From assembly GCA_001314865.1 (NCBI GenBank), contig LJZR01000009.1:1-64000 (forward strand): DNA of 64,000 nucleotides, read 5' to 3'. Source of the DNA: Phormidesmis priestleyi Ana. Lineage in GTDB: Bacteria; Cyanobacteriota; Cyanobacteriia; Phormidesmidales; Phormidesmidaceae. How positions within the stretch are numbered: the first letter of the stretch is position 1; every line of letters begins with the position of its first letter. The position numbers and the translations under genes were made by a program. Of this stretch, positions 38,265-64,000 are shown piece by piece. Below the pieces are notes generated by a model, which was not told the origin of the DNA, did no database searches, and saw nothing but the letters and a program-made list of their open reading frames with translations.

Positions 38265-38873
38265 TTACGACTCTAGGTCTTGACTGCGCCATACTGCGAC
38301 CAAACGCCCGTCAATATGAACATCTTCTGCGGGGTAGCGCATGGGTTCGTAGTTGGGGTTCGCTGGCTTGAGTACTACGGTATCTTTTTCTAGGTGGTAG
38401 TACTTTAGCGTCGTTGTAGACTCTACCCGAGCGGCGACAATGGTGCCGTTGCGAATGCGAGAAGGCTCCATCACTTTTCTCATGATGACGATATCGCCGC
38501 TATCGATCAGAGCTTCTATCATCGAGTCGCCGCTCACCTTAAGCGCAAAGTCTCCCCGTTTAAAGGGCAGTGTTGTTGGATCGAAGTGCTCAACGGTGTC
38601 GGTAAAGGCTTCTACCATTGCGCCAGCTGCGATCGCGCCAAAAATAGGCACACCCTGCGACTCCTGTAAAATCCGAATCGTCCGCGCTTTACCTTCGGTC
38701 CAGTCGATATAGCCCTTATTGCGTAGATGTTCCAATCTACTTTGAATCGGCGCTGGTGATTTAAGCTTCATCGCCGTCATCATTTGGCGAATAGAGGGAG
38801 AGTGGCGATTGTCTCGGATATATCTCACCAGCCAGTCGTAAAGTTCCTGCTGGGCGGTTGTTAAAGATTCCAT
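38265..38873 (-). CDS. lexA: LexA-type repressor
   Basis: A 202-residue LexA with an N-terminal winged helix-turn-helix (RHSPSIRQMMTAMKLKSPAPIQSRLEHLRNKGYI) and a C-terminal S24 peptidase domain. Cleavage site Ala-Gly is at 83-84 (FGAIAAGAM), the nucleophile Ser at 117 (SGDSM) and the general base Lys at 157 (TTTLKYY), so self-cleavage looks possible. This contrasts with Synechocystis LexA, which is known to lack key residues and not to run a classical SOS response. I found no convincing cyanobacterial LexA box before the gene. It lies downstream of sigA, separated by a strong terminator. Confidence 0.93.
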   Translation of the reverse strand: MESLTTAQQELYDWLVRYIRDNRHSPSIRQMMTAMKLKSPAPIQSRLEHLRNKGYIDWTEGKARTIRILQESQGVPIFGAIAAGAMVEAFTDTVEHFDPTTLPFKRGDFALKVSGDSMIEALIDSGDIVIMRKVMEPSRIRNGTIVAARVESTTTLKYYHLEKDTVVLKPANPNYEPMRYPAEDVHIDGRLVAVWRSQDLES

Positions 38874-39091: not shown

Positions 39092-40294
39092 TTAGCGAAT
39101 GTACTCTTTGAGTACACTGTTGCGATTGGGGTGACGTAGTTTGCGTAATGCTTTTGCTTCAATTTGGCGAATACGCTCGCGAGTCACATTGAAGATTTGG
39201 CCGATTTCTTCAAGCGTTTTCATTCGGCCATCATCTAAGCCATAACGTAGGCGCAGCACGTCGCGCTCACGGGGGCTCAATGTGCTTAGCACGCTCTCTA
39301 GGTCTTCGCGCAGCAGGCTTTTAGAAACCTCGTCTTCAGGTGTTTCACCATCGGACTCAATGAAGTCGCCTAGACGAGAATCTTCTTCTTTACCGATGGG
39401 CGTTTCGAGGGAAATGGGCAGTTGTGCAGACTTGGCGATAAAGCGAAGCTTCTCAATGGTCATTTCCATCCGAGTTGCGATTTCTTCTTCGGTGGGCTTG
39501 CGGCCTAGCTCCTGAGAGAGTAGCTTGGTCGTTTTTTTGATCCGCGAGATAGTCTCGTACAGATGCACCGGCAGGCGGATGGTGCGCGACTGATCCGCGA
39601 TCGCCCGAGTAATTGCCTGACGAATCCACCAAGTTGCATAGGTCGAGAACTTATAGCCTTTCTCGTGGTCAAATTTCTCAGCAGCGCGGATTAAGCCTAG
39701 GCTCCCTTCTTGAATCAAATCTTGAAAAGATAGCCCTCGGTTCATGTACTTTTTAGCGATAGAGACCACCAGTCGCAGGTTAGACTGCACCATTTTGTCC
39801 TTCGCACGGCGACCCAAGTGCAATCGACGACGGAAAGCAGGCAGCGGCATATCGACCGCATTGGCCCAGTCTGCATCGGTGGGCTCGTCGTCTAGCTGAT
39901 CATCAATCTCGTCGCGAATTCTTTCTAGCTCTAGCAGGTCGGCAATTTTACGAGCTAGCTCGATTTCTTCTTCAGCGCGCAGCAGCCGAATGCGGCCAAT
40001 TTCCTGAAGGTATAGCCGAATAGAGTCTTCGGTATAGTGCTTTTTCTTGGTCTGAGCAGTGCGACGGCGAGTGGTCTTTTTCGCAGCGCCTTTCGATGCT
40101 TTGGCCTCTGCTGCTGCGGCATCTGCTTCAGCATCGCTTTCTTTCGCCGATCCCTTTTTGGCCTTAGTCGTAGCAGACAAACCCTTGTCTACTAAGTCTA
40201 TAGTCGATGCTTTTCTGGATTTTGACTTCCCGGTAGCTGTAGCGATTTCACTACTGGGTTCTAGAATTTCAACCATTGTTTTAGCCTGGGTCAT
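39092..40294 (-). CDS. sigA: Primary RNA polymerase sigma factor SigA (RpoD)
   Basis: A 400-residue group 1 sigma factor. A Lys/Ala-rich N-terminus (about 20-80) precedes region 1.2 ([16 protein letters not shown]). Region 2 has [25 protein letters not shown] and the -10 reading helix [19 protein letters not shown]. Region 3 follows, and region 4 ends in [20 protein letters not shown]. Group 1 status is inferred from length and near-identity to cyanobacterial SigA at memory level. The upstream gap of about 1.07 kb contains a CRP-type site and a 21-bp palindrome and carries no gene that I can support, so a long regulatory leader is likely. Confidence 0.95.
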
Positions 40295-40632
40295 GGCGAT
40301 GTTTCTTGCTCCTTAGCGGTAAGTGCGATAAGTCAGGTTCAAAAGTAGATTCGAGATTGAGCTTATCTATGGACATGTGATGTGTATAAATCTATTCAGC
40401 GTTTGGCTGCCAGATTATTTTTTGACTATTCACTTGATTTCTTATTCAGTGCTGACAATCGCGATGACATACCGGCGGTTTTCTACCTAAAGGTACATGA
40501 GCCAAAGGGCAGGTTCGATTCAGACTGAGAACGCAAGAAATAATGCAAAAAATTGCAAAAAAACTAGATGGTGAAGTTTGTATGATGTTTTTGTGACATG
40601 AAGCTTTATGCGGCCTTTCTGTCCGGCTTTTT

Positions 40633-40653
40633 GGTACATAAAATTTATGTACC
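40633..40653. promoter_or_regulatory. 21-bp palindrome upstream of sigA
   Basis: GGTACATAAA (40633-40642) and TTTATGTACC (40644-40653) are perfect arms around one base. It lies about 340 bp upstream of sigA. An AAGGTACATGA sequence at about 40490 repeats part of an arm. The spacing does not fit the cyanobacterial LexA box; the regulator is unknown. Confidence 0.5.
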
Positions 40654-41001
40654 TAGAACATACGCCTCGGGGAACTTACCGAACGTAACTATTTAGTCTG
40701 TCAGTTGACCAATTAGTCAATGTGCTCATGTCGAACCCAAATATTTTGCAGTTTTGCTTTCGAAAGTGAGGCTACCCACTAATTTAAGTAATCTTTAACC
40801 ACTCCAGATCTGTTTGTAATAGCCCCGTAGATTGTAGCTTTTTAGACAAAAATTCACCACCTCTGGTTCCATCCTGTTGGATCATGCTCCGCTAGGCTCG
40901 GCAACATCACACCTTTATTAAGGCTGCTGTTAAGACCGCTGCGCTTATACAGTGTTAACACGGACGCCTCAAAAACAACCAGTTTTGATTAACTGAATTA
41001 T

Positions 41002-41017
41002 TGTGATCTTCGTCACA
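41002..41017. promoter_or_regulatory. CRP-type binding site
   Basis: TGTGATCTTCGTCACA matches the TGTGA-N6-TCACA consensus of CRP-family regulators exactly, including cyanobacterial SyCRP1. It lies about 710 bp upstream of sigA and 340 bp past the thyX stop. No other coding region lies close by, so sigA or an unseen transcript would be its target. Confidence 0.6.
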
Positions 41018-41360
41018 GCCTACGTGGATATGCGGGCTGTGTAACCAGTTGAAAGTAAAGCTGAAAAACGGCGAAAAAGTTCCTTATTCTATGGTTTGAT
41101 AAGCATTTTCTCTATAACTTACTGCCTCGTCGGTAGGCGACTTCAGATAGCCTGATAGTATCCATCATCTGTTTCCCTAAAGGCTGATTAGGACCGATTT
41201 GGAGTTGATTTACCTTTTTGTTCTGCGGAAAAATAAGCTCACTGTTCGAGATGCTTTGCGTGGGTTATCAGATGAATTTATAGGTCTTATTAGTTTTTTA
41301 ATTTTTGTTAGTTTTTTAACTTGATTGAAAAGAATTGTATCGATTGCGCAAATTGAATAG

Positions 41361-42083
41361 TTAAGGGGACAGCCGAGCTTTTTTGAGTCGATTGGTTTCA
41401 TACCATTGGGCGATCGCTGGTACCCATTCCTGAAAATGCGGCCAAATTGCCTCACACAGCTTTTGCGCCTCTAGTTGAGCATCTGCTTTCCACCGCAGAT
41501 CTAATAGGTGCATCAGTGACCGAGCATTTGCTGAAAGCACCCAATGCTGCCGCACATCAAATGGAATCAGGCCCCGAGCGTGCTCTTCTGAAAAGCCTTG
41601 GTCAATCCGAGCTTTGTAGCGGTGGCAGCCCTGCACACACCACTCTAGATCTTGCTGCCGCAGGTCTTCTGTGTACTCATACTTCTTTCCCTGTCGGTCT
41701 GTATAAGCGCCTACAGGCCGTAAATAGAACACATCTTCCACATCGATTTTACCTTTGGCAACATCCAGAATTCGAGAGCCGGTATATCGAAAAGATTGGA
41801 CATCGAAGCTTAATCCAACACGATGAGTGCGGATTTGCTGCATGGTGGAATGAGGGAAAAACCCGCAGTTCAGCACAATTTGAGGATGTTCCAACGGGCC
41901 GAAGTGGCCGCGTCCGCCTTTGAGCAGGTTGCGGATAATAAGCTCGCCTGCTTTTTCTTCACTGGGCCACTCGGCGCGCTGATCCCATACAAACTCTTCA
42001 GCATAGTCTTGATGCATGCCTGCATAAATTGTTTGCTGAGGGTTCGGTGTTTTGGAAATGACTTCGACTCTGAAACGATCCAT
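41361..42083 (-). CDS. thyX: FAD-dependent thymidylate synthase ThyX
   Basis: A 240-residue flavin-dependent thymidylate synthase that makes dTMP from dUMP with methylene-tetrahydrofolate and NADPH. The ThyX motif is present as QIRTHRVGLSFDVQSFRY near 83-100, the longer cyanobacterial version of RHR-x7-S. GHFGPLEHPQIVLNCGFFP lies before it and SLMHLLDLRWKADAQLEAQ near 189-207 closes the substrate pocket. No ThyA is seen in the window. The gene is divergent from msrA. Confidence 0.95.
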   Translation of the reverse strand: MDRFRVEVISKTPNPQQTIYAGMHQDYAEEFVWDQRAEWPSEEKAGELIIRNLLKGGRGHFGPLEHPQIVLNCGFFPHSTMQQIRTHRVGLSFDVQSFRYTGSRILDVAKGKIDVEDVFYLRPVGAYTDRQGKKYEYTEDLRQQDLEWCVQGCHRYKARIDQGFSEEHARGLIPFDVRQHWVLSANARSLMHLLDLRWKADAQLEAQKLCEAIWPHFQEWVPAIAQWYETNRLKKARLSP

Positions 42084-62833: not shown

Positions 62834-62855
62834 AAAAGGGGCGATCGCCCCTTTT
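62834..62855. terminator. Palindromic terminator centred on HIP1
   Basis: AAAAGGGG, then GCGATCGC without its outer bases, then CCCCTTTT: a perfect 22-bp palindrome with GCGATCGC at 62841-62848 in the middle and T-rich ends on both strands. It lies between cimA and the convergent repeat-protein gene. Confidence 0.85.
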
Positions 62856-63726: not shown

Positions 63727-64000
63727 GGGGCTGAAACGGTTTCGACGTTTTAACGAAAGTCGTATTGTGATTCAGGTCAAGAGTGAGTCTACTCTTGTAA
63801 ATAAAGGCTCAAACTTAAAGATACATGCAAACGACATCGTACCTTTTGCTCGTAAGCGCGCTCTTGTAGCTGCCGCCTAACAACCTCTTATAGGTTCGAG
63901 CGTCTGAGCTGTGACTCCGTTAATCAGTTCGGACTAAACCCCCAACGGGTGCTCTGGCAAACTTTCTTCGGTGGGTGCGCCAGCTAAGACTTTCACTGAA
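63727..64000 (+). ncRNA. ssrA: tmRNA (5' part, cut by the window end)
   Basis: The 5' end GGGGCTGAAACGGTTTCGAC is the usual tmRNA start, with the tRNA-like acceptor strand and D-loop region. The tag frame begins at GCA 63827 and reads ANDIVPFARKRALVAAA, stopping at TAA 63878-63880; the AA-rich end is the proteolysis signal. Pseudoknot-rich sequence follows to the window edge; the 3' tRNA-like half, with the T-loop and CCA end, lies outside. tmRNA frees stalled ribosomes with SmpB. A TATAAT at 63656-63661 is a possible -10 box. The promoter region between this and the divergent gene holds the two arrays described above and no gene. Confidence 0.95.
63827..63880 (+). other. tmRNA proteolysis-tag reading frame
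   Basis: Seventeen codons plus stop: ANDIVPFARKRALVAAA. The NIVPFAR-like core and terminal AAA are typical of cyanobacterial tags. GCA is the resume codon. Confidence 0.93.

Follow-up and report, generated by a model that had tools for sequence, protein, structure and literature searches.

Genomic context of sigA

The window (the whole stretch of 64,000 nucleotides analysed here, from contig LJZR01000009.1 of Phormidesmis priestleyi Ana) carries on its minus strand, in this order, thyX, an intergenic gap, sigA, and lexA. The sigA gene (39092-40294, minus strand) encodes a group 1 (primary) sigma factor of 400 aa with the Pfam sigma-70 regions 1.2, 2, 3, and 4. Its start, MTQA, is also present in three relatives in an in-frame comparison, and the sequence before it contains an AAGGAG ribosome binding site (40309-40314, minus strand), the GGAG of which is aligned in most rows of the genus alignment. 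The upstream neighbor, thyX (41361-42083, minus strand), encodes a flavin-dependent thymidylate synthase (Pfam Thy1) and has the same position and orientation relative to sigA in G001-G006. lexA (38265-38873) follows sigA directly downstream, again on the same strand. The gap between sigA and thyX, both minus-strand genes, occupies 40295-41360 (1,066 bp), exactly as delimited in an earlier first-pass annotation of this DNA. The corresponding gap measures ~0.8-1.2 kb in G001, G002, G003, G005, and G006 and is longer in G004 than in the other genus members. Among the matches listed, the closest named sigA loci are those of Phormidesmis priestleyi ULC027bin1 and cf. Phormidesmis sp. LEGE 11477. 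The sigA match of G004 (G004:C150:2468-3574) contains three TGA and one TAA codons in frame, perhaps an assembly fault. In G006, G013, G016, G018, G019, and G027, the ThyX matches are interrupted near residues 96-99 while remaining in a single long open frame (554-706 aa), the pattern that an intein would give; the thyX gene of the window itself has no interruption.

No gene is supported in the gap, in agreement with the first-pass annotation. We compared its 37 stop-to-stop frames of at least 20 codons with the gaps of the other genus members by tblastn (E up to 0.01), and the 20 best matches all mapped to a single DNA block, which was hit in more than one frame of each strand; this conservation is therefore at the nucleotide level and not coding, and a small protein was rejected. 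The Rfam scan that had been proposed for 40295-41360 returned no family at gathering score. Three cmscan matches were weak and far below the gathering scores, two of them corresponding to eukaryotic snoRNAs, and a known RNA family was likewise rejected. We detected neither an intrinsic terminator after thyX nor a terminator-like site anywhere in the gap. Altogether, a regulatory region of sigA devoid of protein genes is supported.

A conserved block, probably a promoter, upstream of sigA

The best conserved DNA of the gap is a probable core promoter block at ~40820-40871 on the minus strand (GTGG..AATTTTTGTCTAAAAAGCTACAATC..), with its core, AATTTTTGTCTAAAAAGCTACAATC, at 40854-40830; a related element is found before sigA in many cyanobacteria. 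Its -10 hexamer, TACAAT (40836-40831), resembles TATAAT, reads on the sigA strand, and is kept in relatives. When the gap was searched against genomes, four of the six other genus members gave matches, all within window positions 40768-40871, and one family member matched elsewhere in the gap. The alignment of the genus gaps shows a strong block from 40867 to ~40820, beyond which similarity weakens but continues as far as 40768 (the row of G004 is empty there); apart from the sigA start, no segment other than 40867-40768, most of it promoter, passes the display threshold. By blastn of the gap against the six genus gaps, the block was recovered in all six, G004 included. A block profile built from six genus members also found it upstream of sigA in the family, with E values of 2.9e-6 (G011), 2.7e-4 (G012), and 1e-3 (G022), and gave weaker same-strand matches, many of them individually non-significant, in Nostoc, Microcoleus, Leptolyngbya, and others.

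We extended the comparison to named sigA loci, taking the best 80 by similarity, a set biased to Leptolyngbya and Nostoc relatives. The motif G[CAT]TACAAT occurs within 900 nt upstream in 66 of these 80 loci, apparently as a chance match in L126, and is missing from 14, two of which, L098 and L130, are preceded by just 500 and 68 nt of sequence. Seven of the 14 misses plus L126, eight loci in all (L116, L126, L127, L145, L147, L148, L155, and L157), share mutually similar sequences of the form GTACATC..G[CT]TAAAAT between -253 and -294 relative to the sigA match, in the place expected for the sigA promoter, and these may represent a diverged form of it. The consensus of 48 distinct sequences is GTGCAATTTTTGTGAGAAAGGCTACAATCGG. 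As the rows of this set were anchored on TACAAT and on the G located two positions ahead of it, the invariance of these bases is by construction; the spacer TTTTGT is conserved at 75-96% at positions that were not selected for; the information fades ~40 nt before and ~5 nt after the predicted start.

Near-restriction of the conserved motif to sigA

The longer promoter motif is nearly confined to sigA. Searched with up to three mismatches, TTTTGTNAGAAANGCTACAATC has matches in 99 of 175 class genomes; its reversed control is matched here and there as well, with a maximum of 7 matches in a genome (G057). Among the 57 listed matches with up to two mismatches, 54, each in another genome, share the strand of sigA and precede its matched part by 204-775 nt (median 367.5), and three lie elsewhere. 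A variant of the motif that fixes 15 bases, searched with one mismatch tolerated, has a single match in the genome of the window, at sigA. We also chose 20 class genomes for having no listed sigA match: nine score above the best of 20 opposite-strand profile scores (9.4), three more keep GCTACAATC, and in eight the element is absent by profile, including two small f2 genomes of 1.7 and 2.3 Mb, perhaps Prochlorococcus-like. Another 20 loci were taken from the family and the class, some of their genomes having contributed to the profile; 16 of them exceed 9.4, and three g3 genomes (same family) and G036 do not.

In the mostly open-access literature on sigA that we searched, we found no description of this conserved promoter or of its wide conservation and near-restriction. 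Retained across genomes that range from G063 (2.6 Mb) to Nostoc, nearly exclusive to sigA, and devoid of a proper -35, the putative promoter sequence offers a small, testable handle.

A second conserved block

Further upstream lies a second conserved block, CCGTGTTAACACTGTA (40963-40948, minus strand), which may be an operator or a distal promoter. A search with CCGTGYTAMYACTGTA, one mismatch being tolerated, located it ahead of sigA in 12 genomes out of 58, comprising all seven genus members together with G008, G009, G021, G028, and G032. The other 14 of the 26 listed matches are found elsewhere and the reversed control gave ~53 matches; since the control outnumbers the block, it is the shared position and not the number of matches that supports it. 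The distance from this block to TACAAT varies between 67 and 111 nt across eight genomes, and genus g3 keeps the block without a recognizable core promoter. We therefore favor an element in its own right, an operator or a distal promoter, over a constant component of the core promoter.

To look for NtcA-type sites (GTA-N8-TAC), we used 81 sigA upstream regions, defined as -300 to -35 of the predicted start in loci with a recognized promoter and drawn from overlapping collections of named and unnamed loci in which some genomes occur twice. Six regions contained the pattern (two of them from one genome counted twice), versus two for a control pattern. NtcA control of the sigA gene of the window was rejected, as GTA-N8-TAC is missing from its own -300 to -35 region. 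In two genus members only, L041 and L042 (L086 being the genome of L042), an NtcA-type GTA-N8-TAC (GTAGTCCGTGTTAC) overlaps the second block, at ~-105 from the predicted sigA start.

Predicted promoter and leader of sigA

The comparisons above establish the position, strand, conservation, and near-restriction to sigA of the block. A standard two-hexamer scan (at least 4/6 per hexamer and 9/12 in total) did not list it because its -35 is poor, a good -35 being absent at 16-18 nt from TACAAT. In the reading that we consider very probable, the gap is a control region of sigA centered on this conserved minus-strand promoter at ~40820-40871. Judging from the position of the -10 hexamer, sigA transcription would start near 40824 on the minus strand, and the sigA mRNA would carry a little conserved 5′ leader of ~530 nt (40295-40824); the second block (40948-40963) would add a clade-specific input, and the CRP-type site and palindrome described below would be lineage-specific features. 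Start site, leader, and a putative activator are all predictions from the sequence. The same derivation yields predicted leaders of 445-714 nt in five other genus members. Brahamsha and Haselkorn are said to have described, in 1991, sigA transcripts of 1.7 and 2.2 kb in Anabaena.

According to PMC2758279, group 1 holoenzyme needs a -35, and the cyanobacterial SigA holoenzyme prefers TTGACA/TATAAT. Since group 1 holoenzyme is described in this way, the conserved spacer, which reads TTTTGTCTAAAAAGC in the window and TTTTGTnAGAAAnGC in many cyanobacteria, and the GTGC-like bases at ~-34 to -31 probably carry the missing -35 information, to be bound by an activator or contacted directly by polymerase. 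The same source describes type 2 promoters, which have only a -10 and depend on an activator. The sigA promoter resembles them in its good -10 and lack of a good -35, but differs in that the promoter of the window has no GTA-N8-TAC between -300 and -35, the conserved part is the spacer, and the motif is nearly specific to one gene. We would go further only tentatively: it is possible, if rather doubtful, that the spacer (TTTTGTnAGAAAnGC before TACAATC) is targeted by a dedicated one-gene factor or polymerase contact, which would make it a single-gene promoter code that sets the sigma supply in much of the phylum, with the second block (at clade level) and the CRP-type site (at strain level) as further inputs.

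An architecture of this kind, a promoter followed by a long leader, is known in kind from Synechocystis 6803, the two being compared here by architecture. In PMC6037674, Synechocystis sigA (slr0653) is suggested to form one unit with the non-coding RNA ncr1650, whose upstream promoter combines a typical -10 with a unique -35, with two further promoters nearer to the sigA start, and SigB is needed for rapid sigA activation after light. The two loci are alike in having a promoter before a non-coding stretch, with a typical -10 and an unusual -35. They differ in the two extra proximal promoters of Synechocystis and in gene order, as sigA precedes rrn there, whereas in the window it follows thyX and precedes lexA. 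By analogy with those two nearer promoters, the conserved block need not be the main sigA promoter.

The Synechocystis unit also bears on a different explanation, namely that the gap encodes an independent small RNA and not a leader of the sigA mRNA. Besides the precedent of ncr1650 upstream of sigA, in one unit with it (PMC6037674), the stability of the predicted leader is consistent with it, as only two of 100 shuffles fold as stably (z -2.29). We nevertheless judge an independent small RNA unlikely: the sequence downstream of the promoter block is poorly conserved even inside the genus, and the gap lacks both an Rfam match at gathering score and a terminator-like site. What survives of the unseen small RNA suggested in the first-pass annotation is a long untranslated stretch, the ~530-nt sigA leader, which is probably made; it belongs to no Rfam family at gathering score. 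The durable finding is, in our view, the conserved sigA promoter with its predicted long leader, which that annotation had overlooked, and its lead is corrected here in that the conserved block takes priority over the CRP-type site and the palindrome.

A CRP-type site and its possible partners

The palindrome TGTGATCTTCGTCACA at 41002-41017 (no strand) has no mismatch to TGTGA-N6-TCACA, and so matches the CRP consensus at all ten fixed bases, as already annotated. An exact site arose in one of 3,000 dinucleotide shuffles of the gap and in none of 40 shuffles of the whole window; exact CRP-type sites, like palindromes with an arm of 10 (see below), are rare for a 1-kb gap. The complete genome (5.93 Mb) contains three, versus none for the reversed pattern and ~5.7 expected at uniform composition, and the other two are situated outside the listed surrounding ORFs of at least 70 aa. 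One of these two, at L073 1501-1516, lies just before what appears by eye to be a nucleotidyltransferase/HEPN toxin-antitoxin pair.

The site is not conserved. It is absent from the gaps of six other genus members, where the best stretches have two to three mismatches, and the only exact copy in the 81 sigA upstream regions defined above is that of the window itself, L101 having one mismatch. The reversed control gave no match in these regions at zero or one mismatch and, at two mismatches, eight versus five for the CRP pattern. The conservation in relatives by which the first-pass annotation proposed to check its two sites is accordingly lacking at sigA in those compared, for the palindrome as well as for this site, and we rejected the two as conserved operators.

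The cAMP-type control suggested in that annotation presupposes a CRP-family gene, and the genome has such genes. Seven proteins pass the HTH_Crp_2 cut-off, one of which is NtcA, and six class III cyclase domains are encoded. In another of the seven, G000:C4 (229 aa as cut), the recognition helix follows the pattern R-E-x-x-x-R (RETVTR), which we take to correspond to the DNA-contact residues of E. coli CRP. This protein has matches of at least 62% identity in 17 of 18 genomes, its own included and one being a contig-edge fragment. It matches CRP-family proteins in PDB and scores 75.6 bits, versus the NCBIfam CRP equivalog cut-off of 266. The site at 41002-41017 could be bound by such a CRP-like protein, to judge from these sequences.

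We consider it quite unlikely that a cAMP-CRP (SyCRP1-type) protein bound at 41002-41017 controls the sigA gene of this strain, perhaps via a distal promoter, TATAAG (40949-40944), at the end of the second block. The exact, intergenic site, its rarity in gap and window shuffles, the three genomic copies against none for the reversed pattern with the other two outside listed ORFs, and the presence of cyclases and of a protein with the RETVTR helix all speak for such control, but this protein falls far under the equivalog cut-off and the site is exact in only one of the 81 regions. The center of the site is 185.5 bp from the predicted start of the conserved promoter (40824), beyond the usual distances of direct CRP activation. 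If the TATAAG ending the second block were a -10, the center would instead fall at -72.5, a class I CRP position. CRP control would be most plausible in this arrangement, for which a single genome speaks. The distal promoter itself is conjectural, relatives have a poor hexamer in place of its -10 (TAGGGG in G004), and the 11 other genomes that carry the second block show, in the 110 bp before it, CRP-like stretches with three to five mismatches at best. Known cyanobacterial CRP targets carry TAN3T ~22 bp from the site (PMC2633013). Compared with the SyCRP1/AnCrpA sites of that source, the window site has all ten fixed bases of TGTGA-N6-TCACA and resembles the Synechocystis slr1667 site TGTGATCTGGGTCACA, but there is no TAN3T within 45 bp of it on either strand and it is not conserved upstream of sigA.

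The control of sigA by cAMP is thus at most a lineage-specific possibility. Of the proposal that sigA responds to a cAMP-type signal and at least one other, the regulatory nature of the gap holds, but neither of the two sites invoked for it is conserved; both the CRP-type site and the palindrome are strain-level, lineage-specific features with a putative role only.

A palindrome in the predicted leader

The second of these sites, annotated as a near-perfect operator-like palindrome, is in fact perfect: GGTACATAAAATTTATGTACC (40633-40653, no strand) spans 21 bp, odd, with an arm of 10, and lies inside the predicted leader, at +172 to +192. As RNA it forms a hairpin of -10 kcal/mol. Palindromes with an arm of at least 10 appeared in six of 3,000 shuffles of the gap and in eight of 40 shuffles of the whole window, and one of this size is not rare for 64 kb. 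Allowing up to three mismatches, we found it in three of 58 genomes, exact only in that of the window (G000) and with three mismatches, away from sigA, in the two others; a search of viral contigs gave no match. The half-site spacing presumably misfits the Anabaena LexA motif, which argues against a LexA box. That the palindrome is a repressor operator seems highly improbable in spite of its perfect arms of 10, a length reached in few gap shuffles, since none of the 57 other genomes has an exact copy, the two imperfect ones are not at sigA, it would lie well within the predicted transcript (+172 to +192), and one window shuffle in five has an equally long one. A longer perfect palindrome, AAAAGGGGCGATCGCCCCTTTT, which contains GCGATCGC, is located at window positions 62834-62855, and the window ends within a tmRNA gene, the start of which (63727-64000; Rfam RF00023) it includes.
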